From Triglochin maritima (Eukaryota; Streptophyta; Magnoliopsida; Alismatales; Juncaginaceae): a stretch of 64,000 bases of DNA. The position numbers and the translations under genes were made by a program. Positions 6,514 through 62,401 of this stretch are shown here, piece after piece. The notes under the pieces are model-generated. The model did not search any database. It worked only from the letters and a program-made list of their open reading frames with translations, and was not told where the DNA came from. The DNA lies in the NCBI GenBank assembly GCA_963682175.1, contig OY821770.1:13298501-13362500 (forward strand), given 5' to 3'. Numbering within the stretch: the first letter of the stretch is position 1; each line of letters opens with the position of its first letter.

Positions 6514-9500
6514 ATGGCTGCCATGGCGGAGAAGATTCTTCCCCCATCATGGGAAACTAGGGTTTCCGACGCCGTCCTATCCATCTACACCTCCCTCCCC
6601 AAGAAGGGAAAGCCCCAAGGCCGCGAGACCACCGTCCTCGCCGCCTTCCTCCTCTCCTCCCTTCCCCACCAAAGTACCCCCAAAAACCACCCAAAACACC
6701 AACTTCGCCTAAAAATCGAATTTTTAGATGACCCATTTGGTCGGAATCCGCGTAGGTGTCGAGGTCGTGGCGGTCGGGACGGGGACCAAGTGCGTTGGGA
6801 GGTCCATGTTGAGCTCCGGAGGTGACGTCGTCAACGATTCTCATGCCGAAGTTATTGCTCGTAGAGCGCTGCTGAGGTGATTGAATTAACTTGTCTTTGT
6901 TTTTTTTTCTTTTTCTGTTGGTGTGAATTCTAATGCGATTGGTGATGGACTCAAAACTGTTCTTTAGTTCTTCTATCCGTCAAATGCCATGTTCTGACTT
7001 GGAATTGTCTGGTTGCTATTCGATATATCCTTGTGTAAGTTAGTATTTTCACGAGAAAGAAAAAAACATCGAAACCATTTGCGTTGGACCTCATTTCCCA
7101 AATTTCATCAGTTTTCGTGGAATGTTTGCATCGACTAAGTGTGGAATCAATGTTCCGAAACGTCTTATACATTTAAAATTCATTTGGAACTGTGTTATGT
7201 TATTTTCGGACAAACTCAACTCCCTCCAACTTAGAATTTGGAACTATCTTTTATCAGTGCTGTTGTTGTTTACCTTGAATATGTGTTTAAAGTATTAGGG
7301 CAGAAAAACAGACGATCGGTCGACCGGAAGGAGTGTTTCGGTCGACCGGATGTGTGTTGGATTACCCAGCAAAGTGTCTGTCGTTTTACGGTCGACCGGA
7401 ATATAGGGTTCAGTCGACCGGGCACACAATTGGAGTTGGGCAAAAGTTACTGTCGGTTTTCGGTCGACCGGAACATTGAATTCGGTCGACCGGAAACATT
7501 CGAAGAGCTGAGAGAAAAGTGTATGTTGAATTTCGGTCGACCGGAACCGTTCGGCCGACCGTTTGGACCCAGTTCTGCCCACATTTTGCATATTTCTCCA
7601 CGCGATTTTTGTGCAATTAATACTTGTTTAGGCCTAATATATAAAGGAAATTTCGTCCCCCTTTATTAAAAAAAGTTAATTCATATTGTCCACTTTTGCA
7701 TTATTAAGAGAAAAAAAAGAGAGCATCCTTGTGATTCGTTTGGAGAGATTTGAGCCGGGTCGTTTCCTCGGTTCGTTCACATCTCTTGTAATACGTTTCT
7801 CTATAGTGGATTTAGAGTTATGTCTGTTGAATATTGGCTTATATTTGTTAAGGAAGCAAAACCAGGAAGAGTCGGTCGACCGAATTGGATTCGGTTCACC
7901 GACGCACAACCCAGGAGATTTTCGGCGAAGACGGGTCGGTTTACCGAATTGGATTCGGTCCACCGACCCGAGGATTCCAGGCACTCCGTGTGTAGCTGGG
8001 ATCGGACGACCGAATTGGATTCGGTCTACCGTCAGAAGATTTTGAAGCACTTCGGAAGAACGGTTCGGCAAACCGTTGAGGAGATTTTTGGTGTTCCGAG
8101 AATCTGGAAAGTGTCTGTCCAAGTTGGAACGGATTACCGAGGTTCACTCGGTCTACCGAAGGGTTGTTGGAATAGTTCGTTAGTTCGTGCAAGAAGCGTT
8201 CTCGCGGTCTACCGAGACGCGCGAGAATAGTTCCCTCGGCCAACCGAGAAGGATTCGGTTAACCGAATCGGAACATGAATAGTTCCTGTTGAAGCATTCA
8301 CGGTTAACCGAGCGAGCGTCGGTTAACCGTGCGCATGAATAGTTCTGCTCGGTTATTGCTTAATTTTAGCTCGGTTTTTGAGTCTATAAAAGAATTGTTT
8401 TGTACTTGCTCTTTCATAACATTGCATACAAGTTAGTTTCCTTCATTGTGAGTTGAGAGATTAAGGCTAGAGATAGATCTAGAGTGATTTGGAGGACCTA
8501 TTGCCTCCAAGCATTTGTAATCTTGATTGCTTCTCTTGTTGGAGAAGCGGAAGAAGGAAAGGAAACCCGCAGGAGACCCCCCAAGGACGTAGGCACGTTG
8601 CCGAACCTTGTAAAACGCGTGTGTCGTGGTTGTTTCAGGTGTGCATGCGTTCTTTGCTTGTTTTATTTTCATCTTGCTTGTGTTCTAGTTGCAATTGTGT
8701 TTGGGAGAGGGTCCGAAGTTAATTCCGCAATCAATATTCTATTTTCGTGGTGCGTTTAATCCGTATCGAGTTAGTGCATTGTTAGATCCCCCTCCCAACA
8801 GCTGGTATCAGAGCTTTGGTTGCACTTTCGATGGCGGAGGAAGCGCGAAACTTTCGGGTGGAGAAATTCACCGGGAAGGGGAACTTCTCAACATGGTAAC
8901 GGAGGGTTCGTGCGTTGATGTCGCAGACGGACGGGCTATTGCTGACGTTGGATGGAGTGGAGAAGAAGTCGTCGAAGATGACCGACGAAAAGTGAGAGAG
9001 TCTGAATCTCCGGGCTATTGGAATCATCGAGTTGTGCCTCTCGGATGATTTGCTTTTCGAGGAATCGGCGAAGACCGCAGCAGAATATTGGAAACTTCTG
9101 GAGGAGAGGTTCATGAAGAAGAACCTTAGCAACAAGTTGAATCTGAAGCGTCAGCTGTACATGCTTCGGATGAAGGAGAACACACCGTTCATTGAGCATC
9201 TCTCGGTGTTCAATAAGTTGATAGCTGATCTGACTCAGCTTGAGGACAAGATGGAGGATGTAGACAAGGCAATGTTGTTATTGACGTCGCTGCCGGACTC
9301 GTATGAGAACTTGGTGAATACCATCATATATGGCAAGGACTCGTTGGTGTTGGAGGAGGTCAAGGGCACGCTGATCTCCTACGATGCAAGGAGGAATTCT
9401 GGTGGTAGCTCTTTCGAGAAGGGTGAAGGATTGATCGCAGCACCGGAAAGGGGCAGGACGGGTAACAAAGGAAGAAACAACGGTAAAGGGCGGTCCAAAT

Positions 9501-12500
9501 CAAAGGGGAGATCCTTTGAATGTTTTTTCTGCAAGAAGGTTGGTCATATGAAGCGTGATTGTAGAAACTTCAAGGAGTCGCTGCAGAAAGGGAAAGACGG
9601 GTACAACTCCGCTAGCGTGGTGGAGGAGAAGAACGAAGTCGACGTTCTAACGGTTTGCGCTGCAGGTATTGACAAATCATCATCTGGATCGATTTTGGAT
9701 ACAGGAGCATCTTTTCACATGTGCCCGGATAAGGAGTGGTTCACATCCTATGAGCCACTGAAAGGAGGGATCGTTGTTATGGGCAACGATGCGCCGTGCA
9801 CTACCGTCGGTATTGGTTCCGTACAGTTCAAGATGTTCGATGGGTGCATTCGAACGCTGACGGGTGTGCGTCACGTACCGGAGTTGAAGAAGAATCTGAT
9901 TTCTCTAGGAGAGCTTGATACTCTCGGGTGGAGATGGTCCGGCGGGGACGGAAAGATTAAGGTCACTCATGGGACGATGACAGTGATAAAGGGAACCAAG
10001 GTGGGCAACTTGTATTGGATGCTCGGGAATGCAGTAGCAGGAAAAGGTGCAGCAAATGTTGCACGCGACGAAGACAACACCGTACTTTGGCATATGAGGC
10101 TTGGTCATATGTCGGAAAATGATTTGTATGAACTACACAAACAAGGATTGCTGAAGGGTGTTAGGAGCTGTAAATTGGATTTTTGCAAGTATTGTGTCTT
10201 CGGTAAACAGCACAGGATTCGATTCAAGACGGCTATCCACAAGACGAAGGAAATTCTGGAGTATGTGCACTCAGACGTCTGGGGACCGGCTCAGGTTCGG
10301 TCAAAGGGTGGAGCCGAATATTTCGTCACATTCATAGACGACTTCTCAAGGAAGGTATGGGTTTATTTTCTGAAAAATAAATTTGATGTCTTTGATAAGT
10401 TTAAAGCATGGAAGACCCAAGTAGAGAAGAGTACAGGAAAATTTGTGAAGTACTTACGGACAGATAACGGAGGTGAGTACACCTCAAGGGAGTTTGCAAG
10501 TTTCTGTGAGAAATAGGCGTCACGAGGCATTTCACTACACCGCGAAGTCCGGAACAAAACGGCGTAGCTGAAAGGATGAACAGGACACTATGCGAACGGG
10601 CAAGGAGCATGAGGCTTCATGCAAATCTGTCGAAGGATTTTTGGGCGGAAGTAGTAGATCTTGCATACTATTTAGTAAATATCTCACCGTCATCAGCACT
10701 TGAATTAAAGACGCCTCAGGAAGTGTGGACGGGTGAGCTATTTGATTACTCGAGGCTTAGGATATTTGGATGCAAAGCCTATGCGTTTGTCGATGAGACA
10801 CAACGGTCGAAGCTGGATTCGAAATCGAAGGAGTGCATATTCCTTGGTTACGATAGGACGGTGAAAGGATATAAGCTTTGAGATCCGGTGAGCAAGAAGG
10901 TACTCCTACGGAGTAATGTGGTCTTTGATGAGACGAGTTTGCTCAAAGGCCTTGAGGAGAAAGAGCAGCAAGAGGTTCCCGTGCAGGAAGACGAAATCGA
11001 AGTTGGGGTCACAACTTCAAGGGAAGAATCGAATCAAGAAGTTCAGCAGGAAACAATTGACTCACGAGTAGAGGAGGAAGCTGAGCAAGAGAGTATTGCT
11101 CAAGGAAGGCAAAGGAGGATCACAAAGGCACCGGTGAGGTATGGTCACGATGATGCTAGTATTGCGTTTGCACTTGTTACCGAATGTGGGGACCCTTGCA
11201 CATTCGAAGAAGCTATTGAGCAGGAGGACAGGAACAAGTGGATGGTGGCTATGACCGAAGAGATGGAGTCTCTTCATAAGAATCAAACTTGGGAGTTAAC
11301 GGAGCTTCCCAAGGGAAAGCGCGCGATTGGGTGCAAGTGGATCTTCAGGAAGAAAGAAGGGTCATCTCCTTTGGAGGAGATAAAATATAAAGCAAGGTTG
11401 GTGGCAAAAGGATATGCTCAGAAGGAAGGGGTCGATTACAACGAGATCTTCTCACCCGTTGTAAAGCATACCTCTATTAGAGTGTTGTTAGCTATGGTAG
11501 CTATGGATAACATGGAGTTAGAGCAGATGGACGTGAAGACAACTTTTCTTCACGGGCACATAGAGGAGGAGATCTATATGAGGCAGCCGGATGGGTTCAT
11601 CACACGAGACAAGGAAGGACAAGTATGCAAGCTGAAGAAGTCCCTCTATGGACTTAAACAATCGCCGAGGCAATGGTACAAAAGGTTCGATTTATTTATG
11701 ATTAATAATGGTTTTGTACGTTGCAATTATGATAGTTGTGTATACTTACGGAGTCTTGGAGACGGCACACACGTGTTCTTGCTTTTATATGTTGATGATA
11801 TGTTGATCGCGGCTAAGGAGATGAAGCATATAGATGATCTCAAACTGAAGCTTCACGGGGAGTTTGAGATGAAAGACCTCGGGAGTGCAAATAAGATTCT
11901 CGGTATGGAAATCTCCAGGGATACCGAGAAAGGTGAAATTCTGCTCACTCAAAGGAGCTATATCCGGAAGATACTCGAGAGGTACAATCTCGAGAACGCC
12001 AAGCAGGTGGCCACACCTATTAGTGCTCACTTCAAGCTCTCGTTGAAGTGCAACCCCTCTACTGAAAAGGAAAGGAGAGATATGGAGAGAGTTCCATATG
12101 CTAGTGCAGTCGGATCCGTTATGTATGCTATGATCTGCACTAGGCCAGACATTTCACACGCAGTTAGCCTCGTGAGTCGTTATATGGCTAACCCAGGAAA
12201 AGAGCATTGGGAAGCGTTGAAGTGGCTGCTGAGGTACCTGAAGGGTACCATGGATGTTAGCTTGAAGTTCACCAAAGATGGAGCACAAAGGCAGGTGGAG
12301 GGGTACGTCGATTCAGATTACGCTGGAGATCTGGATAAGCGGAGGTCCACAACAGGGTACGTGTTCACTTTGGGTGGAGGTCCAGTGAGTTGGAGATCAG
12401 TTCTCCAACATACTACCGCGTTGTCAACAACGGAAGCGGAGTACATGGCTGTTGTCGATGCCGGAAAAGAAGCTATATGGTTGAAGGGTTTGGTCAGCTC

Positions 12501-15500
12501 TTTGGGGATGGAACAGGAAGTGACCAAATTGCATTGCGATAGTCAAAGTGCAATTTATCTAGCCAAGGATCAGACGTTCCATTCAAGGACCAAACATATT
12601 GAAGTAAGGTACCATAGGATCCGAGAGTGGATCGAAGAAGGGCAGGTTGTTCTCCAGAAAATCGACACAAGTGAGAATCCTGCGGATATGATGACCAAGG
12701 TCGTCAATCGGGAGAAGTTCGAGTTGTGCTCGAAGCTTCTCAATGTCCTCAGAGAGTGAGAAGGAGGGCGCTCCGGGGGTAGCGCCAAGCGGTGTCTCTC
12801 GTAGACACGAAGGATGCGGGATAAAAGAAGACTCAGGTAACAAATCTAAACCAAGGTGGAGATTGTTGAATATTGGCTTATATTTGTTAAGGAAGCAAAA
12901 CCAGGAAGAGTCGGTCGACCGAATTGGATTCGGTTCACCGACGCACAACCCAGGAGATTTTCGGCGAAGACGGGTCGGTTTACCGAATTGGATTCGGTCC
13001 ACCGACCCGAGGATTCCAGGCACTCCGTGTGTAGCTGGGATCGGACGACCGAATTGGATTCGGTCTACCGTCAGAAGATTTTGAAGCACTTCGGAAGAAC
13101 GGTTCGGCAAACCGTTGAGGAGATTTTTGGTGTTCCGAGAATCTGGAAAGTGTCTGTCCAAGTTGGAACGGATTACCGAGGTTCACTCGGTCTACCGAAG
13201 GGTTGTTGGAATAGTTCGTTAGTTCGTGCAAGAAGCGTTCTCGCGGTCTACCGAGACGCGCGAGAATAGTTCCCTCGGCCAACCGAGAAGGATTCGGTTA
13301 ACCGAATCGGAACATGAATAGTTCCTGTTGAAGCATTCACGGTTAACCGAGCGAGCGTCGGTTAACCGTGCGCATGAATAGTTCTGCTCGGTTATTGCTT
13401 AATTTTAGCTCGGTTTTTGAGTCTATAAAAGAGTTGTTTTGTACTTGCTCTTTCATAACATTGCATACAAGTTAGTTTCCTTCATTGTGAGTTGAGAGAT
13501 TAAGGCTAGAGATAGATCTAGAGTGATTTGGAGGACCTATTGCCTCCAAGCATTTGTAATCTTGATTGCTTCTCTTGTTGGAGAAGCGGAAGAAGGAAAG
13601 GAAACCCGCAGGAGACCCCCCAAGGACGTAGGCACGTTGCCGAACCTTGTAAAACGCGTGTGTCGTGGTTGTTTCAGGTGTGCATGCGTTCTTTGCTTGT
13701 TTTATTTTCATCTTGCTTGTGTTCTAGTTGCAATTGTGTTTGGGAGAGGGTCCGAAGTTAATTCCGCAATCAATATTCTATTTTCGTGGTGCGTTTAATC
13801 CGTATCGAGTTAGTGCATTGTTAGATCCCCCTCCCAACAATGTCGTCCGTGGTTTTTCCCGCATTGGGTTTCCACGTTAAATCTTGCGTGTTTTGTGTGG
13901 TTTGGATTGTGGATTTGCATTGTGTTCTCAAGTTTAGCCGATTAGATTTGCGATTTCTGTTCCGCTGCGTATTTGAGATTGATTTTAATCCCTAACAATT
14001 AGTATCAGAGCTTTTTTGGTCCGAATTTGAGGATTTTTTCATCAATTTTTTGTCAAGTACTCATGATAAATCATTGGAAGATTGAGAAGTTTAGCCGAGA
14101 TGTTACTTTCGGCTTGTGGCAAGTTAAGATGCACGCAATTCTGGTGCAGCAAGAGGTGGTGGACGTTCTTGAGGGCATGAACAAGTTGCCAAAAGAAATG
14201 TCCGATCAAGATAGGCAAAAACTTAATCGTAAGGCGATGTCAACAATAAAACTATCGTTGTCTGACGAAGTTTTGAGAGAAGTGTTGAAGGAAAAGACGG
14301 CTGCAAGTATGTGGAAGAAAGTAGAGGAAGTCTACATGAAGAAGTCACTTGCGAGCCGGATTATCTTGAAGAAGAAGTTGTTCCTATTCAAGATGAAGTC
14401 GGGTATCTCCCTTCAGCAACACTTGGATGATTTCAATGCAATCATCATGGACTTGGAGAAGGTTGAAGCAAGGTTTTCTGATGAGGATCAGACGGTCCTT
14501 TTACTTTGCTCGTTGAGTTCTTCATATGATTAGTTCGTGGAGACAATGATGTACAGCAAGACCGACATCTCTCCTGCGGATGTCAAAAACGCACTCTCCT
14601 CCAAATCTGATATGGAGAAGAGGTCTGATGGTTCTGAGTTGAGCAAAAGTGAAGCACTTGTTGCTCGTTGTAAGGGGAAAGAGAGGAGTTTCTCAAAGAA
14701 CACCTGTAAGACCAAGTCGAAGGACAAATATATTATTTGTCATTACTGCAAGAAGAAGGGTCACAAGATATCAGAATGTTTTAAGCTACAGAACAAAGAG
14801 AAGCAAATGGGTTCTAGTAGTGGTGGTCAGTCAGGTTCGAACGTTGCGGAGTCCGATTCTGATTTTGTGTTGGCAGTTACAGGTTCTATTGAAGCTTCCG
14901 ACGGTTGGGTGATTGACACGGGCAGTACATTCCACTTAACTCCGAATAAACATTGGTTTTCATCTTATGAAACAATGTCAGGTGAAATGATTGTGATGGG
15001 CAATGGTGACAGGTGCGAGGTTGCAGGAATTGGTTCTGTCAGATTGAGGACTCATGATGGCCTAGTCAAGATTTTATCGGATGTGCGACATGTTCTGAAG
15101 GCGAGCAAGAATCTGATTTCAGTAGGTAGCCTGACTGCAAAGGGCTACAAATTCAGTGTTGAGGATGACAGCTTATCCATCACCAAATGATTACTTATTC
15201 TGATGAAAGGGAAGAAGCTTGGGCCCAGCAAGCTTTATATGCTTAAAGGAGAAACTGTTGTGGGTGACGCAGTTGTAACGTCATCGTTGTCTGGTGAGGA
15301 GAATGCCCAACTTTGGCATATGAGGTTGGGGCACATGAGCGAGAAAGGCATGACGGTGTTAAACAAACGTGGTTTGTTTGAAAGTCAGAAAATCGGCAGT
15401 CTGGACTTCTGTGAATTTTGTGTTTTTGGGAAGCAGAAAAGGGTCAGCTTCTCAGCAGCTAAGCACACCGCCAAGGCCACTTTAGATTATGTCCACTCTG

Positions 15501-18500
15501 ATTTATGGGGACCTTCTCAGGTTCCATCAAAAGGTGGAGCTCGCTACGTGCTTACATTTATTGATGATTTCTCCAGAAAGACTTGGGTTTATATTCTAAA
15601 ACAAAAGAGTGATGTGTTTCAAAAAATTTAGCACTGGAAGGTTATGATTGAGAATAAAACAGGAAAGAAGATTAAGGTTCTTAGGACGGATAATGGTTTG
15701 GCGTTTTGTTCCTCAGAGTTTAACGATTTCTGCAATGATGAAGGAATCGTGAGACACCGAACCGTACGTCACACACCACAACAGAACGGAGTAGCAGAAC
15801 GTCTGAATCGAACTCTCTTGGAGAGAGCTAGATGTATGCTTCTGAATGCTGATCTGACTAAGGATTTTTGGGCAGAAGCAGTGTGTACCGCTTGTTATTT
15901 AGTGAATCGTTCGCCTCATACCGTTTTGGATATGAGAACACCGGAAGAAGTTTGGAAATGTGGAGCTTCAGATTTGTCCAAGTTGAGAGTCTTCGGTTGT
16001 CCAGCGTACGCACATGTAGATCAAGGAAAGTTGAATGCTCGGTCGTTGAAGTGTATATTTCTTGGCTACGATTTGGGTGTGAAGGGTTATCGTCTATAGT
16101 GCAAAGAATCTCAGAAGCTCATGGTTGAAAAAAATGTTGTCTTTAATGAGCTTGCTATGTTACTTTCCAGGAAAGACACTGTTATTTCTACTCCCGTGTC
16201 AAGTGAGACTCCAGTTCAGGTGGAGCCACCGGTAGTGACTGCTAATAAGGATACCAGTGTGACACAACGAGAGAGTTCGAAATCTGAGGAAGATGAAGAT
16301 TATTTGTTGGCAAGGGACAAAGATACGCTGAATCAGTCCTTGCATATTTGAGCCTCTGGTGAGCCGAGCAAGTATTTAGAGGCAATTTCGGCAACCGATT
16401 CAGCTGCTTGGGTGGGTGCAATGAATGAAGAGATAGAGTCTTTTCATAAGAACCAAACTTGGAAGTTGGTAAAACTTCCAAAAAGGAAAAAGGGTCGTTA
16501 GCTGCAAATAGGTCTTCAAGAAGAAAATCGAGGGTCTCTCAGATGTGAGGTACAAAGCTCGATTGGTTGCTCGTGGTTTTAGTCAGGTGGAGGGTGTGGA
16601 TTATAGTGATATTTTCTCACCCGTTGTGAAGCATACTTCTCGGATCAGCAAAGATGATTCTAGGTGTGGAGATACGTCGTGATCGTACATGCAAGAGTTT
16701 GTTTCTCTCCCAGCAGCAATATATTGAGAAAGTCTTGCATCGTTTTGGCATGGAAAATGCCAAGTCTGAAAGAATTTCTCTCGCCGCGCATTTTATGCTC
16801 TCGGTAGACTTGTGTCCCAAGAAGGAGGAGGATAAGGCATACATGTCATGTGTGCATTATACTAGTGCAGTTGGCAGTCTGATGTATGATATGATATGTA
16901 CTCGTCCAGATATATAGCTCAGGCGGTCAGTGTGGTGAGCTGCTATATGTCGAATCCAGGAAATGAGCATTGGTCAACTGTGAAGTGGATTCTCCAGTAT
17001 CTAAAAGGTACAACTAAGCTATCTCTGAAATTTGGTCGATCTTCGTATTCGTTAATGGGGTTTGTAGATGCCGATTACGCGGGAGACTCCGATAGACAAA
17101 AATCTATGACTGGTTATGCGTTTACTGTTGGGAGCACGGCTATTAGCTGTAAAGCGACGTTGCAACACACTGTTGCTTTGTCTACAACGGAGACAGAGTA
17201 TATGGCAGCGACCGAGGGTATCAAGTAAGCTCTTTGGCTGAAAGGTTTATTTGGAGAGCTGATTCCAGGTCAAAATACAGTGGTTGTTTATTGCGACAGT
17301 CAGAGTGTCATTCAACAGACGAAGGATCTGATGTACCACGAGAGGACGAAGCATATCGACGTCCGTTATCACTTCATTCGGGAAGTTGTTGCTGAAAGAG
17401 GTGTGGTGGTGAAGAAGGTGGGCCTTAAGATAATCTGGCTGATACGTTGACGAAGCCAGTTATTTCGACTAAGTTCATGGTATGCGTGAACTTGGTTGGT
17501 TTGAGTTCCAAGTAGGTTGAGCTAAGACGACGACACAATGAGAAATGAAGTGTTCCTTCAAAGATTTACACGGGCTATTCAAGGTAAATGTGAAGATTGT
17601 TGTTGTTTACCTTGAATATGTGTTTAAAGTATTACGACAGAAAAACAGACGATCGGTCGACCGGAAGGATTGTTCGGTCGACCGGATGTGTGTTGGATTG
17701 CCCAGCAAAGTGCCTGTCGTTTTTCGGTCGACCGGAATCTAGGGTTCGGTCGACCGGGCACACAATTGGAGCTGGGCAAAAGTTACTGTCGGTTTTCGGT
17801 CGACCGGAACCTTGAATTCGGTCGACCGGAAACATTCGAAGAGCTGGGAGAAAAGTGTCTGTTGAATTTCGGTCGACCGGAACTTAAGTGTACGGTCGAC
17901 CGTGTATGCACTCGCGCAATCCAGAAAAAGTTACTGTCGTTTTTCGGTCGACCGGTACTTCAATTTCAGTCGACCGGTACTTCAATTTCGGTCGACCGTT
18001 CGCGATACGGTTATTGGATCGGTCGACCGTTTGGACCCAGTTCTGCCCACATTTTGTATATTTCTCCACGCGATTTTTGTGCAATTAATACTTGTTTAGG
18101 CCTAATATATAAAGGCAATTTCGTCCCCCTTTGTTAAAAAATGTTAATTCCTATTGTCCACTTTTGCATTCTTGAGAGAAAAGAGAGAGAGAGAGAACAT
18201 CTTTGTGATTCGTTTGGAGAAATTTGAGCCGGGTCGTTTCGTCGGTTCGTTCGCATCTCCTGTAAACATATCTTGTAATACGTTTCTCTATAATGGATTT
18301 AGAGTAGTGTCGTCCGTGGTTTTTCCCGCATTGGGTTTTCACGATAAATCTTGCGTGTTTTGTGTGGTTTGGATTGTGGATTTGCATTGTGTTCTCAAGT
18401 TTAGTCGATTAGATTTGCGATTTCTGTTCCGCTGCGTATTTGGGATTGATTTTAATTCCTAACAAGTGCTCTACTGTTCGTAGCTGATGAGGTTCTGTAG

Positions 18501-23109: not shown

Positions 23110-26100
23110 CTATTTCTTCTCTTTCTTCTCTTCTTTTTTCTCTTCCTTCTTTTCTTCCTTCTTCTCCTCTTTCTTCTCTTCCTTCTTTTCGTCCTTCTTT
23201 TCTTCCTTTGCTGGTCCCACTGATATGATGTCTATTTTTCCAATCTTCTTCAACTTTTTAGCAATGGCCACTGTGTCCATGTTCCCTATGATTGTCATCT
23301 TTTGCTCCTTCATGTCTGCTGCAATGGAATCTATACCTACAAACAGAAATTCATTTAATAAAAATTCCCACTAACCAAACTGTCATCTACTTTAATTACC
23401 AATTAAGCATGGTAAACAAATTTCAATGGAAAGGATTAGTAAGAAGTTAGAATATAGTAGTGTGTTAATATTAAAAGGTCAAATACAAGACATGATCTTG
23501 ACCCTACTCATTCTAGACATCATTCATGAAATCACACAATTTATAGGAGAGTTTTCCTTGTGATTGATTAAAGTTGCTTCATTGACCAATCTCTGCAACC
23601 ACAAATATTGTTTTTCCATTATCATGAATTGGTTGCGCAGCAACACATAATCAAATCATGAATTGGTTGCGCAGCATCACATAATCAAGAGATTCATTGT
23701 ACAATTGGAGGCCCCATGATGGAAGACAACATTGACTTTACTTCTATGGCATATTCATACCGGTAAATCTAATCACCATCCTCCTTAATTTACACCTTAT
23801 TATTCACGCTAGTCGGTGGGATTGGATGTAACGTACCCGAAAACAGCGGAAAATTTAAACAATAATAAAGACCGTCAACGGTCAACACTGGGCACGTCAC
23901 GGGAAACAAACCAACATATATAATATAAATATGATCCACGTGGAAGTCAAATATACAGACTGACTGTGATTACGACAAAAGCTATACAATATGTAATCAC
24001 CTCAAAAGAAAGAGACTGACAACTACAGGATCTGATCTCGGGGGCACCGTCCTCGGTCACCACCTCAAACTCTAACCCTGCTCGCTACCTGAAATGCAAA
24101 CAACAAACATGCCTGAGTTCCCTGAAGGAACCCCGTATACCAAACCTCCTAAAATATAAAAAGGAATTAAATACAATGCAATGCTATGCACATGATCATC
24201 CGCCTCGGGCCCACAATAATGCCCTCACCGCCTCCGCGGCACTGAACCACTCCTGCCACTAGGGTCAAGTCAGTCCACCGCTGCCTCACAAGGGTCAGTC
24301 GACACCACTGCTCCCCAAATCGTGCAGGAAGGAACCCCTGGTACACGCCGCACCCAAGGAGCGAGTCAGCCCGCCGAATACACAACTCGGGTCAGACGAC
24401 AGCCACTGCTCCCCCAAGAGTCGCCTAGCGCGCACCCTGCCGGAACATCCTCGGCCTACCGCTAAACCCTCGCAAACTGCCCAAGGTTTACGGTACACAT
24501 CCCTCACACCCCGCTCGGTAAGAGAGGAAAAAGGTACAACAATAATACGCCTTCGTCGAAGGTGAAATCCGTAGCTCTCAAAGCCGGTAATCAACCGTCG
24601 CCTCGGAGCCGGTAGTCGACCTGACATCGACGGGTCGCGTGTGGATAAATCCACCAACCTGCGGTAGATCGGTCGACCGCTACAAGCACACCGGTCGACC
24701 GGTCCCCCACACAGTACACAGTACTGTACAAACAAATCTACCGGTCGAACCACGCCAACCGAATTACCGACCAATTGGTCGAACAAAAGTCATCTAGCGG
24801 TCGACCGTTTGGAAGGTCTACGCTATACCATTTTATATAATATATATATCCGACCGGTCGAACCAAGGGGCCGTTCGACCGATAACAGGACTTTCAATAT
24901 TTTGCCCAAGTCTCGTTCGGTCGACCGGAACTGAAATACAGTTCGACCGAATCAACACAAGCACTCTACCGCTTAATTAAATGCTCAGTCGGTCGACCGA
25001 GAGTTAAAGAGCGGTCGACCGTTTTGATGGTCAAAGCTCCCAACCGACTTAGCATCGAATGGATCGGTCGAACAAGGTAAGGACGTTCGACCGTTTAATA
25101 AGTCAAAATCCCCAACCGACCCATTCTCATCGTTATTCGGTCGACCGGCTAAGTGGTCCCGTTCGACCGATAACAGTATAATCCCCTTTTTCCCGCACAA
25201 TCTGGCATAACGGTCGACCGTCTAACGACATCGTTCGACCGTTCGCGGGTAAATAACAATATAATAATAGGATCGGTCGACTGCCCACAGGCACCGGTCG
25301 ACCGATCGTCGTCTTCAACCTCTGAATTGGTTGAATTCCGACGGGGAATTCGACACCAACGTCGATCCCCAACACTCACAAGGCACAAGTGAGTTATATT
25401 GAAGATTTGGCATACCTTTTTGACGGTTGAAGAAGCCTCCCAAGCTTTGGCTACTTCAACTCAACACTTCACCTTCTTCTCCTTTTCTTCCTTTCTTCTT
25501 CTTCTTCTCTCTAACCTCTTCTCTCAAGCTCTGGTTGTTGAAAAGGAAAAGAAAACGTTTTATTAACCTTACCTTCCAATTTATAGGCAAACCAATTCTT
25601 ATCCAACCTCCACCTCATCCAATCCTAAATCAACACCTCATGCTACACTATTCCAGGATTAGATTAGGTTAATTAGGTTTAGGTTTAGTTAATTAAGATG
25701 TTTTAGATTAGGTTATTACATTGGAGGTCCTGAAACGGCTTCGGTTTCTGAGAAAAAAAAGTCTGTTCATGACATAGTTTTTGAAATGGTTTTTGACCAT
25801 TCACATTCGTTTGGATGCGAAAGTTGTTTTTTCAGTTTTTCGATGTCTGTTCACGACGAAAAGATGCATTAACCATTCCCTTCAAATTTATAATTTTTTG
25901 TTAAATTTTGGTCTTCAATTGAGAAGAATAGGCTAATATTGGCTTAATCGTGCGTATTTTGGAGAAAGTGATAGATTTCGGCTTAGTATTAAGGAAAAAT
26001 TAGATTTTTTTGGGTGAGTAGATTGATTACTCACAAGGGCATGAAATGAAATAACCTAATAAAATTGAGAGTATAACAATAAAAAATCAAGTGACAAAAA

Positions 26101-34519: not shown

Positions 34520-36573
34520 ACTGTAAGTGAGGCTCGAGGGATCGAGTGAGGCTTGCAAGGAGGACTATGACCGGCGTGCGGTGTCGAACCTCTATAAAAT
34601 CCGGTGTCAACGAATTTGTGGTTTGCAATTATTTCTTCCCTTAATCCTTCAGTTAGTGTTTTAATTTCGCATTTATCTAGTGATTAAAGGGTCATATATC
34701 CTAACAATTGGTATCAAAACATTAGGTTGCTAATTTCATTTACTTAATCATAATTTAGCATGACATCTAGTTCTAATCATTGTGAAGGAGTATCCACATC
34801 TAAGTCACATTTATTTAATGGGTTAAACTATAACTATTGGAAGAAAAGAATGTGAATATATTTGCAATCCAATGACTTAAAATTTTGGACATTCATCTTA
34901 AACCCATATACACCTCCTAATGACGATGAGATTGTATCCTTAACTAAATCCAAAATTAAGGAAGCGGAGATGAATTCCTGCATCATGAACATCTTATATT
35001 GTGGGTTAAATGAAGGGGAATACAATAGGGTAAGAGGTTGTGAAAGTGCTTATGACATTTGGCATACATTAGAAATACAACATGAGGGTTCAAATAGATT
35101 GAAAGAAACTAGGATAAATTTGCTCATGCACAAATATGAACTCTTTCGTATGCAATCCGGTGAGAACATAAGCGAGATGCACACTCGCTTCACCGAGATC
35201 ATTAACTCTCTCAAAGCACTTGACAATGATTTTAGCAAGGAAGAAATGACTCAAAAGATTCTCCGGTCACTCACCGACGATTGGGAGGAGAAGACGACCG
35301 CTATCAAAGAATTTCAAGATCTCACAAAGTTTTCGGTCGAGGAGCTTATGGGTAGTCTTATGACATATGAGATACAAATGAAAGATCGCAAGGAGAAATG
35401 ACCCAAAAAATCCTTGGTGCTACACGCCGTCGCCAATTCGATCAAATGAGATAGTGACATTGAAGAACAATTGGTGACACAACAATTCAAGGAGTTCCAC
35501 AAAGAAGAAAAAAGAAAGAAGAAAAGAGAAGAAGAATAAACCTCTCAAAGCAACTTTGGACGACTCATCATCCTCATCAATTGATGAACTCGCGTCAATG
35601 TGCTTCACGGAAATAGAAGATGAAGATAGTGAGGTATCTTCTTGCTCTAGTCGCGATTCAATTAATTCAAATCATTCAAATGCGTATAATGAACTTCAAT
35701 GTGAAATCAATGAATTGCTTGAAAACTTTGAGAAAAATTGTCAAAGAAATAAAGTAGCTAAAAAGAAAATCAATGAGCTACAATCTCAAATTGAATCTAT
35801 CATGAATGAGAAAATTGAATTGTTTGCTAGTCTTGATAAAATTGCATTAAAGAACACTCATTTGATTGATGAAATTGCAACTCTAAATGCAAAACCTTCA
35901 TATAGTGATGATATTCAAGATCTAATTGCTATGAGTATTCAATTGTAAAAAGATCTTGAAAGATTTACAAAGGGAAAAGAAATGTTTGATAGGCTTATTG
36001 GTAGTCAAAGACAATCTTTAAATAAGCATGGTTTAAGCTATTATGTTACCAACTACAAAAACTATGTTATTCATACTACATTGAATGGAAAACATTTCTT
36101 TGTGAATAAAAGTTCCTCAAGTGTTTGGACACCTAAAACCAAAATGGTTTTGGTACCAAAACTTAAAGTCAAAAGACCTAAAGTTGTTTGAATATCAAAA
36201 TATTCACTTGTAGGTACTTAGAAGGAGGAGAATCGATAGTGATTCGCTCAAGCAAAAAAAGATTGATTTCAAGCTTTAAAGAAATCATTTGGATCGAATT
36301 CAAAAAGTCATCGTCGCTATCGAAAGGATATTGAAACCAATACCAAATCAATGATCAAAAGTTTGGTGACATTTTCAATTCTCTTAAACTTTAACATTAG
36401 GTTCTAATCTAGGATTGTAACATGTTTAAATGATAACATACATCATTGCTTTTATGCCTTAGTGATAGGGGGAGCATATAATGTTATATCATCTAATTAA
36501 TAGGGAGAATTATGTAATCCTAAATCTTTGCATCATATGCTTTTATTGTTTGCATTTGATGTATAAAATTGAA
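34520..36573 (+). mobile_element. Truncated copia element with gag only (SIRE-like / TR-GAG-like)
   Basis: An LTR end fragment (CTCTATAAAATCC near 34590; end CCTAACA at about 34704) is followed by a PBS-like ATTGGTATCAAAAC and a gag gene. After gag no protease, integrase or RT is present. The sequence then runs through a polypurine-like AGGGGGAGC (about 36468) typical of the SIRE 3' region. The right boundary coincides with the start of the dispersed duplication at 36574. A matching 3' LTR was not found. Confidence 0.6.
34760..36191 (+). pseudogene. Copia gag polyprotein fragment, interrupted
   Basis: The ATG at 34760 opens a UBN2/gag-like protein (LFNGLNYNYWKKRM) that meets a stop at about 34853. 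The main gag body, 34862-35401, contains YDIWHTLEIQHEGSNRLKE and the FTEIINSLKALD region. After stops and frameshifts, a coiled-coil-like acidic segment (35556-35948) and a C-terminal piece (35982-36191) follow. This layout resembles SIRE-type gag. The CCHC knuckle expected between them is not seen. Confidence 0.75.
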
Positions 36574-38421: not shown

Positions 38422-39149
38422 ACGCCCAGGAATTTTTTTTAAATTTTTTAAATTGATTACAAAATGTGATAAATTTAAAATAAATTCAATATTATGTTAA
38501 TAATGAATTAAATTAGTTTAGTAAATCCTTTATTGATTATAAATTATGATAATTAATAAATAAATCGATTATTAAGTTAATAATTAGTTTAATTATTTTT
38601 GCAATGAATTATTGATTAAAAGTTGTGATAATCACTAAATAAATTGATTATTATGTTAATAATTAGTTGTGTACGATTTTAGTAAATGATTTTTTTATTA
38701 ATTGTGATAATTGCTAAATAAATCGATTATTAAATTAACAATTAGTTTAATTATTTTAGTAAATCCATTAATAAAATTTTATTTTAAAAATTGAATTAAT
38801 AGTCATCGGGTTACCGTGGAGGAAAAGAGAAATCAATTCCCTTACGCGTGGTACGTAGTGTAGCAGACGAGTCAGGTCCTCATCATCCACGTACACGTGA
38901 TATTTCTGCTTCAGTCAGGTCATCGTCATCCACGTATCCGAGCATGCAGTACGGTCTGCGACGACGTACGACGTTAGGCATAGCGCTTCATTCGCGGAAT
39001 CGGTTTGGAGGACATTTCCGAGAGTAAGACGACTTCACCTGGACGATCTGAGTCGTAACCGCGGCCCCTCCACTTGTGATGCAGATTATTTGCAGTTGTT
39101 CGGTAGGTGCTCACATCCACTTATCCACTCCTTGTCCGTTATTATTGCA

Positions 39150-42942: not shown

Positions 42943-42947
42943 GTTTC

Positions 42948-45002
42948 TGTTAGAACCCTAAACCCATTTAGGGTGCTAATGAGGGTTTAGGAGGAGAGAG
43001 GAGGCTTTGCATGGGGAAGGGAAGAGGGGGTGCACTGTTGGTGGGTGTAGGGTGATGGAGAGGTGTTGTTGTGGGGTTCTTAAATGAAAATCTCTTTCTC
43101 TCTCTCACTTGCACTCTCTCACTCTCATTCTCTTCCATTTCCGACGCAGTAGAGGGGGAGGCTCCGGTGTGAAGCGTCTGGAGGCGATCGTGCGAGGAGG
43201 TGGACGCGCAAGGAGGTGCGGAGACGGCGTGCGCGAGCGGAGCTCCGGCGTATTTCGTCGTTCTCTTGAGGTATGACACTCCTTAGTGTGTTTTTGTTGT
43301 TAACCCTCGTGGGAGGTTGTGTTGGTCGGTCAGGGGAGGTCGGACACCTCTCCGACGACGAGTTTTTGCGTAAATCCTCGGTTGGCGCGAGGTTGAAGAC
43401 GACCAACGGTCGACAGGGCCCTTCGAGCGGTTGACCGAATGTAGTGTATTTTGACTGCCTGTTGTGTTTCGGTCGACCGGTTCCTTGTCTTCGGTCGACC
43501 AGAAGTTAAGTGTACTGGACCTTTTATGCATGTTTGCGGTCGACCGTTATATGACTTAGAATTACTAGGATGCCGTGGTAGTTTTCGGTCGACCGAGACC
43601 CCTGAGTCGGTCGACCGATAGTTTGATTTGATGTTGACCAGACTCCGGATTTTGACCTCGTTTCGGTCGACCGGGTTTAGACTTTTGGTAGACTGTTGGG
43701 ACTTAAGTTTTGCGCAAATAGTTCGACCGTTACAGACTTTCGGCCGACCGATTCCCTTGAGGAAACGGTCGACCGAGTTGCCTCTTTCGGTCGACCGTTT
43801 TTGCACAGGACTGAATTCCTGGTTCCCTTTTTGAATGTCAACTCTGTCCACGGAAACTCGTGTACTCGCCTTGTGCGTGAGCCGGGAGGTGACGGTGGGC
43901 GTGTTCCGCGTGCCTGCCCAGGGACCGCCGTGTGGAAGAGTGTGGGTGTTCGGGACGCGTCACCTCCATGTATCGATCGTGACTAATATGATGGATTGAT
44001 TAGACTCATTGTAGAGTAGCAGGCCTAAGGGATCGCGGATCCCAATGTATGATGATTGTGCAAGCACGCAACTGTCGTTGGGTGAGGTGACTACCGGCCT
44101 ATATGGCGACGAAGGTTGCTGCCCTGCTTTTATAGCGGCGGCGTTGGTGTTTGCGGCTCGTGGAGCCTGATGACCTGGCAGACTTCGGTCTGGACCCGTC
44201 CGATGTTGTGCCGGACGTATTGTTGGACCACCGATGTTGTGCCGGTGATGCCGCCGATGTTGTTTCGGCGATGATGATTGATGGGTCGATGTTGTTCCAA
44301 CTATGTTGTATGATGGGTTGATGTTGTTCCGACTATGTTTTCCTCAGCTGGGCACCTACTGAGATGATGATTGATGGACCGACCGAGCGACGGCTACGTT
44401 GGTGTGGTTACGACCACGAGTTACAGATCTGTTTCTTATGACGCGGACCTGGCGGATGCCCCTTGCTGAACCCCATGATTAGTGTAGCCGCGTGTAGGGG
44501 GTGTCACATCTTGCTCCGTTAGACCGTATGTGCCTACGGTAGGTCTCCTCGGGAGACCCGATGATGATTGTTGGACTGAGGTCTTGTGTTACCCTTCAGG
44601 AGAACTATTTTCCTTACAGTTGATGACATGACATGCTACTAGTATGATATGTTCATTTGTACTACTGCATGCATATAGGTGAGCTTGGCATACAGGGTTT
44701 CCTTATGGAAACTCAGGCATTGTTGTTGCATCTTTTCAGGACCATAGTAGGTCCAGTTGGGTGGTGATCAGCGGGCGCGCGTATCTTGGGATCGAATCCT
44801 CTATTCAGACCACTGAGGTCGACATGATTATGTTTATCTTCTTTTGTTGTTCTGTTGTAATCATGTATCGTTTTGACAAATTCTGATGTAATATGGTGCA
44901 CCGCTTATATGTTTTATGAGAAGTAACAGTCCCGTCTTTAATTATTGGTTTTTGATGTCTTGGTTATAAAATTTTAAATTTCTGCTGTTTCGGGATGTTA
45001 CA
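42948..45002 (+). mobile_element. Solo LTR of a Ty3/gypsy-related element upstream of the LRR pseudokinase
   Basis: 2,055 bp, starts TGTTAGAACCC, ends GGGATGTTACA, perfect 5-bp target duplication GTTTC (42943-42947 and 45003-45007). It shares GGTTTCCTTATGGAAACTCA with the other two gypsy-type LTRs here. A CT-rich initiator-like stretch (43085-43130) precedes the palindrome array. A GATGTTGT(G/T)CCG word repeats around 44198-44338. Its end lies about 85 bp upstream of the putative TATA of the downstream gene. Confidence 0.9.
43407..43797. repeat. CGGTCGACCG palindrome array, solo LTR upstream of the LRR pseudokinase
   Basis: About twelve palindromes or one-mismatch forms. Pairs are exactly 22 bp apart in three cases, for example 43470/43492. 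Confidence 0.88.
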
Positions 45003-55203: not shown

Positions 55204-55300
55204 TGGGGGGAGGAGAATTAGGGTTTCGGATGGGGGTTTAGGGTTTGGGAGGGTTGAAGGAATGTTGGTAGGTTGATGAGGACGGGTTTGTCTCATTGTC

Positions 55301-57158: not shown

Positions 57159-57595
57159 AAGACCATCACTAACCATGACCTGGACGACCTGGTCATCAAC
57201 TCTCTCTCTTCAAAATCAGTTTTCTCTCTCTTCCACATCAGCTTTCTCTTTCCTCAACCCACCTTCTTCTCTTTCCTACACTATTCACCTCTTAACCACA
57301 ACCCACAACAACTTACCTCTCTCCTCCACATCATCTTTTATTTCCACTAACTTTTATTATATTCCAAAATCAATTATATTTACCCAAAACATTAATAATT
57401 CAAACAAATATTTATTAATAAGCAAATAATTATTTTTATCAATAATAAACAAAATACATATTTATTTAAACCATTATACGTAGCGTAATACAATAAAATA
57501 TTACATTACCTCAATTTCATTAAAATGAAAATGCATACTACTAAAAAAATTAATTTGAGGTTCCCCCGAATCGTTGCGATATGTGCTCGATCAAG

Positions 57596-57832
57596 TCATA
57601 TCTTAGGGTGAGATGTCTGTTTTTTTTCACGAATGTGTTCTCTGGTGTCCATGTACGTATCAAGATTGACAACACGACCGGTGGAGAACTGATTCGAACC
57701 CAGAGTTGATGTGCCGCCTAAGTTGGGCGGGATGTCATGCTCAAACTCTGTTGTATCATAAATAGTGGAATATGAGTCTCGTTCGTCCTCTACTATCATG
57801 TTGTGCATTATGAGATAGTGTATAAATGCCAC
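57596..57832 (-). pseudogene. PIF/Harbinger transposase, C-terminal remnant
   Basis: About 78 codons matching the end of the DDE_4 Harbinger transposase: FIHYLIMHNMIVEDERDSYS is the diagnostic block. The catalytic core is absent. The upstream part of the gene was deleted, joining this tail directly to the 5' flank of ORF1 near 57825-57840. Confidence 0.8.
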
Positions 57833-57897
57833 ACAAGTCCTTCGAAGTCATCACACCATCTAAACACCGAAACATCCTTTTCAAAACTTCACTGATA

Positions 57898-59136: not shown

Positions 59137-59701
59137 TATATACGTACAACTACTGAAGGTTAAAGAGTTGTGTTTAATGACTGAGGAGGACGAAATCTAG
59201 CTAGCAAATGTACGTAAGGAGTTGATGTCAGTTTCCGTTTAAGCGTTGTAAATCTGGTTTAATTTCAATTAAGCGGTGTATTGTAGCTTCATTCAAATCC
59301 AAGTGTGCTAATATAGTTTTAATGACAAATTATTTACGAAATAATACCCCCACGTATTTAAACCAAATAAAAATTAAATCCAACATCTCCAACAAATAAA
59401 TAATACCCCAACATATTTAAATCAAATAAAAATTAAACCCAACATCTCCAACAAATAATTCAACCTAACATCTAAAACAAATATTTAACCAATAAATATT
59501 TAACAAATAAATAAAACTTAAAAAATTAAAAAAATTAAAAAAACCCAACCCGGACGGGCCACGTGGCGCGTCCGAGTTGGATGACCCGGACAACCGGGTC
59601 GTCGACCCGTGCGTTGAAACGCTCGGGTCGACGACCCGGGCGAAGATGACCGAGGTCATCTTCGACCGACCGGGCAAAATGCCCCGTTAAGGGATGCCCT
59701 T

Positions 59702-59877
59702 CATTTAATGCATCATCATTACGCCCTTAGCTTCATTGACGTTTGGGACACCCTCTGTTATGGTGGGAGAATTTGGATAAATAATGCCCAAGAGAACGTG
59801 AACCAAACAATGGTCAAATGTATCCCACTACATTCCTACGTCGACACATGAAAATTATAAAAAAGATAGACATATCT
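59702..59877. other. Short spacer between transposons
   Basis: No feature is recognised between the Harbinger element and the copia LTR. Confidence 0.4.
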
Positions 59878-60219
59878 TGTAAAATCCTGATCTCCACTTT
59901 AGATCAACACCATGATTGAGAAGAGGAAGAAATATATCTAAAGGCTAACAGAGTAATTGAAGGAGAAAAGAGAAAAGAGAAAAAAAAGAAAAACTGCTCA
60001 TGTAGAAGGTGATTCAGTTGGTTTGTTTTATTGATTATGATTCATTGAAATGTTGCCCTTGAGGGGATCACCTATTTATAATTGGTGTTCGTCATATACA
60101 TGTTGACAGAGTAGTCCGTTTACAATAATCGGATCCAGTATTAGCATATTACATATGATCCCACTAACGTTCTCCTATATGATTAGTATTGATGTTAATC
60201 TTTTCCCTAGATCTTTACA
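59878..60219 (-). repeat. 3' LTR of the fragmented copia element
   Basis: Begins (minus) TGTAAAGATC and ends ...ATTTTACA; 342 bp. The 5' partner is not in the window. Confidence 0.6.
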
Positions 60220-60224
60220 TTCCC

Positions 60225-60782
60225 CATCAAGGTTGAGAGTATATGTCGTGTACTCCTAGCTTGGAGACTATGAATCTGAATTGAGCTTGACAGAGAGGTT
60301 TAGTGAACAAATCTGCCACTTGTTGTTGACTGCTGATGAAGATTGGTTGTATAATGCTTTGATGAATCTTCTCTTATCAAATGATAGCCAATCTCTATGT
60401 GTTTCGTTCTTATTGGATTTCTTCGTTCTTTCATGGAAGACGTGATTGGAAGCAATGGAGATTGGTTATTTGTTGTCACAGTGAAGGAGAACAGATCCAA
60501 ATTGCTGCACTTGTAAATCTTTGAGCAAATTAAGAAGTCAGGTCACCTCACAACATGAGTTGGCCATGGATCTATATTCTGCTTCAGCTGAACTCCTAGA
60601 TATGATAGCTTGATTCTTTGTCTTCCAAGATATTAATGATTGTCCTAAATATATAGCATAGATTGTTGTTGACCTTCTAGTAAGTGGGCAACTTGCCCAA
60701 TCTGAGTCACAGTAGGCTCTAAGATTAATGGAATTGCTTGTTGGGAAGAACAATCATTGTGTTGGTGCACCTTTAACATATC
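60225..60782 (-). pseudogene. Copia RNase H fragment, broken
   Basis: Minus-strand pieces read LRAYCDSDWASCPLTRRSTT and continue through SWKTKNQAIISRSSAEAEYR, the copia RNase H block. Frameshifts separate it from the C-terminal RTKHIEIGYHLIRE region at 60300-60500. A stop also lies just upstream of FFPTSNSINLRAYC. Non-functional. Confidence 0.82.
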
Positions 60783-61218
60783 TGACATGTAACATCCTCA
60801 AAGTAGCGGAAAATTTAAAATTTATAAACACTCAATCAACAGAGGATATTACGCAAATAAAGGAACACAGGTGCACCAACATATATATACATATATATCC
60901 GAACATCAGAGTTTACAAAAGTTGTGATTACATCAAAAGCATAAACGAAGGAAACAGTAATCACACGACCTCAACCGAGAGAAAGCTGGATCCGGTAGCA
61001 GCGCTCCTCTCCTCGGTCACCACCCCCAAACGCCGATCACGGCCTGAAAGTAAACATGCAACAATGCCTGAGTTTCCAGAAGGAAACCTCGTATGCCAAA
61101 CTCTAAATGCATGAAATAAAAGCATCCTAGCATGCAATTCTACAACCCAAGAAAAACCTCTCAACACGCCCAGCTCCAGGGCTCTCTCATACCCAACCAC
61201 AAGACACACTACTGGTAC

Positions 61219-61610
61219 GGGGCTCCAGGTCTAATCTCAACCAACCGCCGCACCCACCACCATCACGGGGCTCCAGGTCTAATCTCAACCAACCGCCGCG
61301 ACACACACTCGTCGCCAAGCTGGGCTCCAGGTCTAATATCAACCAACCGCAGCTACCACGACACGACCAAGGGCTCCAGGTCTTTTTCAACCAACCCAAA
61401 CGTCTATGGGCTCCAGGTCTTTTTCAACCAACCCCTACACGCGGTCCCTGCTCAGGCTTCAGGTCTATTTTCAACCAACCCGAACGCACTACGGAGCTCC
61501 AGGTCTATTTTCAACCAACTCCGTACAGACTAGCTGGGCTCCAGGTCTATTTTCAACCAACCGCAGCTCTCACACGGTTACGGGGCTCCAGGTCTAATCT
61601 CAACCAACCA
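61219..61610. repeat. Tandem repeat block in the gypsy LTR
   Basis: Nine units of 37-55 bp. Each begins GGGCTCCAGGTCTA (or ...TCTTT), followed by a TCAACCAACC core, then a variable tail. The ~26-nt core is conserved while tails differ in length and sequence. It lies downstream of the palindrome array and is not seen in the two solo LTRs. Confidence 0.9.
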
Positions 61611-61721
61611 CCGCAACCCTCGTGCACCTAGCACACTTGCCGGAAGAACATCGGCACTACGACTCGCCCCACACGGACAAACACGACCACAGCACCTCCA
61701 TAGTGCAAAACAGGACACAAA

Positions 61722-62401
61722 CGGTCGACCGAACCAAAAGTCCCGGTCGACCGAATCAAGCAAATACAGGGCAATCCACTTCGACCGGCACTCCATCGGT
61801 CGACCGATTCCCATCAACAACACTCGTTCGGTCGAACCCAAGTCAAGGGACGGTCGACCGTTTAGATGGTCAACTCCCGGTTCAACGAACAAAACGACTA
61901 ATCGGTCGACCGACAAAGGGGTCCCGGTCGACCGAAAGTCACCAGGGAAAAATCCCTCAACACCACAACGAATTCGGTCGAACGTCGAGCACATCTCGGT
62001 CGACCGAATCTGTCCAGGGAATAATCCCTCACTCGCGCCAGGAATTCGGTCGAACGCCGAGCACATCTCGGTCGACCGAATTCCTCCAGAGCGTTCCCCA
62101 CGCTCAGCGCACAAGTCCGGTCGACCGAACCCTCATCCGGTCGAACCGACCACTATTCTCACTTAAGTCACGGTCGGACGAAAATCAACGAGCGGTCGAC
62201 CGTTTAGATGGTCTAAGCCCCCAACCGACTTAAGACAGTGCACACGGTCGACCGGCAAAGGGGACCCGGCCGACCGAAACTCACCAGGCCTGCCTCCAAT
62301 GCACAATCGGTCGACCGCCCCACAGGCATCGTTCGACCGATTTGAGGCAGAACCCGAATTTCTTCACGAACGGTCGACCGTTTGCACCAACCGGTCGACC
62401 G
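61722..62401. repeat. CGGTCGACCG palindrome array, gypsy 3' LTR
   Basis: More than twenty palindromes or half-degenerate forms (CGGTCGAACG, CGTTCGACCG, CGGCCGACCG). Nine or so adjacent pairs are exactly 22 bp apart, for example 61722/61744. It is the densest array in the window. Confidence 0.9.

Follow-up and report, generated by a model that had tools for sequence, protein, structure and literature searches.

A palindrome repeated at about 22 bp in copia and gypsy LTRs of Triglochin maritima, a candidate binding site for a common dimeric factor

Arrays of a short palindrome in the long terminal repeats (LTRs) of plant retrotransposons have been described for the Sireviruses. According to the main text of Bousios et al. 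(2010, PMC2829016), the Sirevirus repeated motif (RM) is a palindrome with a CGG-CCG core, present in at least 8 copies per element, in a cluster that starts 200-400 bp into the LTR and is followed shortly downstream by a TATA box. RMs are given there as Sirevirus-specific among copia elements and absent from classic copia, several AGGGGGAG polypurine tracts precede the 3' LTR, and a common binding site of a single factor is not among the properties reported for RMs in that text. In Table 3 of the same paper, the RM given for a Vitis Sirevirus is CGGTCGACCG. In maize, Sirevirus palindromes have been described, in the relevant passages of two papers, as hotspots of small-RNA mapping (PMC5311732, PMC10760457), and one of them is reported to be, in structured Helitron regions too, more abundant than any other motif (PMC10760457). 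The present study concerns the same 10-mer in a 64-kb window of the Triglochin maritima genome (the whole stretch analysed, C1:13298501-13362500), where it is arrayed in the LTRs of copia and gypsy elements.

Repeated sites for host factors in U3, such as the BII boxes of Tnt1 and the heat-shock elements of ONSEN, drive the transcription of these elements; to our knowledge, LTR enhancer repeats of this type have been found in single families. In the DNA transposons En/Spm and VANDAL, element-terminal arrays of a short motif are bound by the element-encoded proteins TnpA and VANC, respectively. As far as we know, the transcriptional control of abundant plant retrotransposons, and the use of one host factor by unrelated families, is largely an open question. 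With site, spacing and orientation all defined, a cis code of this kind would offer a bait for such a factor, and would allow one to ask whether copia and gypsy promoters converged or were exchanged.

A palindrome shared by copia and gypsy LTRs

The window contains 50 exact copies of CGGTCGACCG, against a mean of 0.02 and a maximum of 1 in 100 dinucleotide shuffles, and 49 of the 50 lie inside LTRs, namely those of copia elements A and B, of two gypsy solo LTRs and of a chromodomain gypsy (chromovirus). The sole remaining copy, at 1778-1787, has neither neighbours nor a recognised LTR around it. Genome-wide (1.063 Gb, 167 contigs), the exact palindrome occurs 359,535 times and its reversed-letter control 90 times. 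Sixteen stretches of 10 kb were taken at round positions, and the 15 that remained after L011 (mostly N) was dropped give a sample of 150 kb. Among the palindromic 10-mers of this sample, CGGTCGACCG ranks first with 64 copies, followed by two AT repeats (52 and 50) and then by a 10-mer with 7. Of these 64 copies, 61 stand inside LTR arrays holding at least seven exact sites; the other three occur singly, two of them in or beside LTR-like stretches and one adjoining weaker sites. A preliminary description of the window had reported the motif as far denser than chance, as almost confined to LTRs and as common to copia and gypsy, all of which is borne out here; a comparison inside versus outside LTRs, which it had proposed, shows for the 150-kb sample alone that the motif is not equally common outside. 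The motif itself is not new, being identical to the Vitis entry in PMC2829016, and its occurrence in Sirevirus LTRs is likewise known. Searches of an open-access library gave no report of CGGTCGACCG in gypsy LTRs or of the doublet grammar set out below.

The arrays studied come from the window, the 15 sampled stretches and the first 0.8 Mb of C1, that is, from one genome; loci outside the window carry L numbers. A Sirevirus of this genome, recognised in L022 by five AGGGGGAG tracts before its 3' LTR (L022 3174-3466, minus strand), also carries CGGTCGACCG, with seven exact sites per LTR. Copia A and B are, judged by their sequence features, non-Sirevirus copia: no AGGGGGAG polypurine tract is found within either. 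The L022 gag frame has no match to copia A or B at E 1e-10. The coding regions of A and B are 42-59% identical over the aligned parts, and both are 34-42% identical to the copia pol in L023. At the LTR, copia A ends in AAGGTGGAGAT and copia B in AAATGTGAAGAT; the junction of the copia B LTR with its primer-binding site, CA-ATTAG-TATCAGAGC, is similar to the Sirevirus junction. Counted over both LTRs, the exact sites number 7+7 in L022, 6+11 in copia B and 8 (cut 5' LTR) + 9 (3' LTR) in the gypsy element of L018. The first exact site lies at LTR position 389 in L022, 379 in L021, 417, 523 and 667 in the gypsy LTRs of the window, and 57 in copia B. In all five copia LTRs compared (B, A, L029, L022 and L021), a TATAWA follows the array at 53-96 bp, and L022 and L021 have others too.

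Doublet spacing, weakened halves and spacer divergence

Exact sites 10-40 bp apart form 100,280 pairs genome-wide, while the control forms none. The first 100 listed pairs, all from the first 0.8 Mb of C1, fall into 53 spacer groups, of which 48 are spaced at 18-25 bp (mode 22), four at 31-33 bp and one at 40 bp; none of these 100 pairs is spaced at 10-17, 26-30 or 34-39 bp. The spacers themselves differ, the 12-bp spacers (20 groups) holding at most 0.29 bit per position. Doublets were assigned to five groups by LTR similarity, and not by the coding sequence of each copy, and 22 bp is the mode in every one of them: among distinct exact doublets of 18-24 bp it accounts for 10/12 in Sirevirus-type LTRs, 7/13 in copia B kin, 8/14 in copia A kin, 18/28 in chromoviruses and 5/17 in the unassigned group. 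In four copia arrays, 12 of the 33 gaps between exact sites measure 21-22 bp, and in four gypsy arrays 9 of 33 do so, whereas random placement of sites gives means of 1.3 and 1.0, respectively, and never more than 6 in 2000 trials; copia A was excluded from this test, and related subfamilies (such as the two Sirevirus-type and two of the chromovirus arrays) were kept side by side. A 22-bp exact doublet was also met in viral contigs, in two stretches of the whole collection, and was taken as chance.

Larger gaps cluster near 31-33, 42 and 50-53 bp. Over ten arrays, the gaps of 26-130 bp show a period near 10.5 bp (46 exact-site gaps, jitter p 5e-5), and those in copia a best period of 10.4-10.55 bp (20 gaps, R 0.80, jitter p 5e-5). 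The clustering of gaps is the firmer statement; binding on the same face of the DNA is an inference.

Weakened sites follow an orientation rule in the sampled arrays. Among 92 isolated doublets, 55 inner, partner-facing halves and 17 outer halves are changed, and the inner excess is present in each of two Sirevirus-type and three chromovirus families. With chains and copia A included, 76 changed doublets hold 94 inner and 43 outer mismatches. Fifteen further arrays, mostly kin of the first, give 36 inner against 13 outer (p 0.0014 if independent); identical changed doublets were counted once in the sets of 92 and 76, and not in these further arrays. The transversion G3T/C8A is the commonest change, present in 11 of the 34 sites that have a single mismatch in 11 arrays. 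When it stands 18-24 bp from an exact partner, this variant faces inward in 36 distinct doublets and outward in 2 (21 against 1 when grouped by spacer), with inward-to-outward counts of 8:0 in Sirevirus-type LTRs, 1:0 in copia B kin and 27:2 in chromoviruses; no such doublets were seen in copia A kin or in the unassigned family. At 26-70 bp the bias is reversed (22 against 67), as expected if such pairs join neighbouring doublets. Genome-wide, the CGGTCGAACG form of the variant faces inward in 12,021 + 12,222 cases (24,243), a figure that covers the inward orientation alone, the outward-facing pattern being CGTTCGACCGN{8,14}CGGTCGACCG.

Decay of CpG was rejected as the source of the weak sites, since only 10 of the 34 one-mismatch sites are CpG transitions. 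A reading of the palindrome as a W-box of WRKY factors was likewise set aside, the W-box-like CGGTCAACCG making up only 2 of 73 CGGTNNACCG in the sample. LOB-domain factors were considered as candidate binders and gained no support from a literature search.

When sites with up to two mismatches were masked and the arrays compared by blastn (E up to 10), no significant similarity appeared between copia and gypsy arrays, nor between those of copia B and the Sireviruses. The chromovirus arrays did match among themselves, as did the two Sirevirus-type ones, and the only other match joined L001 to the 61 kb chromovirus at E 6.7. No two of the five groups have an identical exact doublet in common. 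Simple homology of the arrays was rejected, unmasked matches deriving from the sites and their spacing, and the earlier statement that copia and gypsy LTRs are not homologous agrees with this lack of residual similarity. Within copia, the copia-like LTR in L029 is 89% identical to the copia A LTR over 117 bp and has ten exact sites despite this match, which suggests that the array changes faster than the part of the LTR that the two have in common. The relaxed sites of copia A keep the CGG..CCG ends around a variable centre and form 19-bp doublets, while those of its relative L029 are exact and form doublets of 21-22 bp; a shift of copia A to another binding specificity is possible.

Elements carrying the arrays and their neighbours

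Features of the window are collected in Table 1; LTR boundaries were checked by self-comparison and by target-site duplications (TSDs).

Table 1. Retrotransposons, LTRs and palindrome arrays of the window (positions within the 64-kb stretch)
Feature	Position	Strand	Remarks
Copia element B, including TSDs	7256..18469	+	TSD AGTGC; self-blast, sequence, Pfam gag_2, Pol_BBD, gag_pre-integrs, rve
Copia B 5' LTR	7261..7824 and 13845..13997		Split by element A
Copia B 5' LTR array	7317..7561		6 exact sites (7317-7543) and weaker ones; spacing 22/50 bp
Copia element A	7825..13839	+	Nested in copia B 5' LTR; TSD ATGTC; Pfam copia
Copia A LTRs	7825..8800 and 12864..13839		976 bp each, 99.9% identical
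Copia A 5' LTR relaxed array	7873..8329		1 exact site (7873) and 11 at 1-2 mismatches; 19-bp doublets
Copia A 3' LTR relaxed array	12912..13368		1 exact site (12912) and 11 at 1-2 mismatches; copy on which measurements were made
Copia B 3' LTR	17598..18464		867 bp
Copia B 3' LTR array	17654..18029		11 exact sites and 1 one-mismatch site
TATA-like box	18104..18113	+	76 bp past copia B array end
Gypsy solo LTR, 24 kb	23827..25720	-	TSD TCCAA; matches L018 chromovirus LTRs at 90-91% identity over most of its length
24 kb solo LTR array	24670..25304		9 exact sites and weaker ones
Gypsy solo LTR, 43 kb	42948..45002	+	TSD GTTTC; 45-bp stretch 91% like 61 kb chromovirus LTR
43 kb solo LTR array	43407..43797		7 exact sites (43470-43797) and weaker ones
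Chromodomain gypsy 3' LTR, 61 kb	60788..63067	-	Pol end with SH3_Tf2-1 and Chromo, frame 63029-64000, minus strand
61 kb chromovirus 3' LTR array	61722..62401		14 exact sites and weaker ones

In the 3' LTR of copia B, successive array gaps are 21, 50, 22, 50, 22, 51, 23, 52, 22, 22 and 31 bp, and the shorter array of its 5' LTR is without a counterpart of 17884-18018. The chromodomain at the end of the gypsy pol in the window scores 27.7 bits (Pfam cut-off 25.1). In L013, a chromovirus relative with an array beyond its pol, the corresponding score is 21.9, below the cut-off. The gypsy element of L018 carries arrays in both LTRs, which are 98.0% identical; RVT_1 is present and its pol is 81-85% identical to that of L013 at the amino acid level, while a chromodomain of its own was not seen. 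In the 61 kb chromovirus LTR, a unit of 37-48 bp is repeated in tandem between the array and the LTR end (61217-61609); its core is GGCTCCAGGTCT..TCAACCAACC.

As for the Sirevirus-type sequences, the LTRs of the L022 element (L022 3182-5514) are 99.8% identical and enclose an interior of only about 2.3 kb with a gag-like frame, and the element is probably non-autonomous. In L023 (881-2422), a Sirevirus-type LTR, apparently an insertion, separates the integrase frame of another copia element from its reverse transcriptase frame. The window itself has a fragment with a Sirevirus-type gag at 34698-36474, which is 48-62% identical in amino acids to the gag frame of L022. It contains a single AGGGGGAG, at 36467; no CGGTCGACCG is nearby, and the fragment is apparently a Sirevirus relative without the motif. 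In addition, L001, L039, L040 and L042 form an unassigned LTR-like family, with L017 and L032 as distant kin, in which sites overlap (CGGTCGACCGACCG) and doublets are shorter, many at 18-20 bp. An AT-rich tandem array with a 79-bp unit (3.6 copies) occupies 38478-38764 of the window.

A candidate dimeric factor, alternative accounts and known systems

The fixed palindrome, the preferred spacing with differing spacers and the orientation rule, all found in LTRs without detectable homology, point to one dimeric binder acting on pairs. We put at roughly 0.6 the probability that the site pairs are bound cooperatively by one trans-acting protein, dimeric and sequence-specific and most likely a host activator, which has selected site and geometry in several LTR lineages; protein binding, dimer state, host origin and activation are what we infer from the sequences. 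In such a mechanism, a dimer would recognise CGGTCGACCG, and two dimers on a doublet, about two helical turns apart (mode 22 bp), could make contact on a single face of the DNA. Within each palindrome, the outer half-site would be essential, and the inner half, facing the partner, would tolerate change. Doublets repeated at further gaps (about 42 and 50-53 bp) might build an enhancer-like array, which in copia LTRs would act upstream of the TATA box. As several lineages would use the same host factor, selection would keep site, spacing and orientation while spacer sequences diverge. A common DNA-binding factor had already been suggested in the preliminary description, and it is the best reading here too, now backed by the shared doublet spacing and the inward weak halves. 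In its boldest form, one protein, acting through paired dimers, a 22-bp geometry and outward strong halves, would be the master regulator of several copia and gypsy lineages that have converged on one enhancer code with about 360,000 putative sites; this we hold tentatively, at slightly less than even odds. If it were true, these sites would be a large competing reservoir for the factor and could touch genes adjoining the LTRs.

Several observations weigh against a single paired binder, or weaken the tests behind it. Copia B kin lack the inner bias (1 inner, 2 outer, too few to judge), and 19-bp doublets in copia A, like the many of 18-20 bp in the unassigned family, depart from the 22-bp geometry. 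Mean pairwise identity among the 12-bp spacers (0.366) slightly exceeds that of shuffles (0.325, standard deviation 0.008), partly because of palindrome-flanking bases. Phasing is weak in gypsy (23 gaps; p 0.024, 0.019 and 0.097 with 0, 1 and 2 mismatches allowed, and best periods of 17.95, 11.2 and 20.0), and in the 15 further arrays the best period is 9.55, with 10.2-10.7 also significant (p 5e-5). A tandem duplication with a unit of about 72 bp accounts for part of the within-array regularity, and many of the doublets counted come from kin copies, so that p-values based on independence are too small. As to the promoter, the preliminary description had placed the arrays of copia LTRs directly upstream of TATA boxes; this is right for the five copia LTRs and does not extend to the four chromovirus LTRs (24, 43 and 61 kb and L018), in all of which the first TATAWA comes 747-1167 bp after the last exact site. 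Two of the four, the closely related 24 kb and L018 LTRs, also have a TATAWA inside the array.

The lineages may have reached the array by convergence or by an old exchange of the module with later loss of spacer similarity. The exchange, which we regard as possible without favouring it, would have the array arise once, probably in Sireviruses, in which RMs are known, and then reach gypsy elements and the other copia elements through recombination or template switching, the spacers diverging while sites and spacing were kept. It rivals the account of origin and not that of mechanism, as a trans factor would still be needed to hold the sites. The identity of the 10-mer with the Vitis Sirevirus RM (Table 3 of PMC2829016) speaks for it, as do the likeness of doublet spacing in all groups, the inward rule in both Sirevirus-type and chromovirus LTRs, and, on the account given in PMC10760457, the presence of the maize Sirevirus palindrome in structured Helitron regions. 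The masked copia-gypsy and copia B-Sirevirus arrays, however, show no residual similarity, and groups share no identical doublet.

It is unlikely, in our judgement, that the arrays recruit a sequence-specific silencer, or an anti-silencing or suppressor protein encoded by the elements, with access modulated by CpG methylation. The binding of terminal arrays by a transposable-element protein is a known design, for which VANC and TnpA offer the comparison, and the sites are dense in CpG (observed/expected 1.37-1.97 in 11 arrays). Copia and gypsy would, however, need one common element-encoded protein; moreover, successful elements should lose a silencer site, yet LTRs that are 98.0-99.9% identical carry arrays (full in L018 and L022, relaxed in copia A). 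It is because of the shared binder otherwise needed, and of the arrays kept by elements with near-identical LTRs, that a host activator is preferred. Decidedly improbable is an origin in RNA hairpins, in which pairing of the palindromes in the transcript is itself selected or triggers silencing by small interfering RNAs (siRNAs), as proposed for the maize Sirevirus palindromes. Array transcripts (first 400 nt) do fold more stably than mononucleotide shuffles (z -7.3 for copia B, -7.2 for the Sirevirus and -3.3 for the chromovirus, 30 shuffles each), the maize palindromes are small-RNA hotspots according to the passages cited above (PMC5311732, PMC10760457), and conservation of the outer halves would by itself also fit a stem. 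Yet the lineages have the exact sequence in common and not mere complementarity, hairpin formation would not call for a fixed spacing of 22 bp, and among 42 changed isolated doublets of the further arrays one inner half is changed in 28, both in 4 (none of the 4 exactly complementary) and neither in 10; hairpin-derived siRNAs may be a side effect. We give hardly any credence to a neutral growth of the repeats, whereby tandem duplication and gene conversion would spread a satellite-like motif without binding function. The 72-bp tandem repeats of copia B and the similar successive spacers of the L029 array fit it, but spacers differ by lineage while 10-mer and spacing persist across LTRs without detectable homology, and the inward orientation of 36 distinct doublets against 2 is contrary to it.

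Set beside known systems, the arrays resemble those bound by TnpA and VANC in having many copies of a short motif, and differ in belonging to LTR retrotransposons; a gene for an element-encoded binder like TnpA or VANC was not found here, although no systematic search was made. Compared with the BII boxes of Tnt1 and the heat-shock elements of ONSEN, one site and one geometry are found here in both copia and gypsy, with about 360,000 copies in the genome. With the maize Sirevirus palindromes they have in common a palindrome-rich cis region of the LTR and the abundance of one palindrome in two superfamilies (Copia and Helitron in maize), whereas the maize sequence is different (CACCGGACNNNGTCCGGTG) and is discussed, in the passages concerned, through RNA structure and small RNAs (PMC5311732, PMC10760457). 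The closest likeness is to the Sirevirus RM: both are CpG-rich palindromes with a CGG-CCG core, present in many LTR copies and, in copia, upstream of a TATA box, and the consensus is identical to that listed for Vitis. A term search of the main text of PMC2829016 found nothing on paired RMs, on phasing of their spacing or on their orientation, and the comparison made there is, in the passages concerned, among copia elements; in T. maritima, LTRs of chromodomain gypsy elements and of copia elements other than Sireviruses carry the same palindrome as well.

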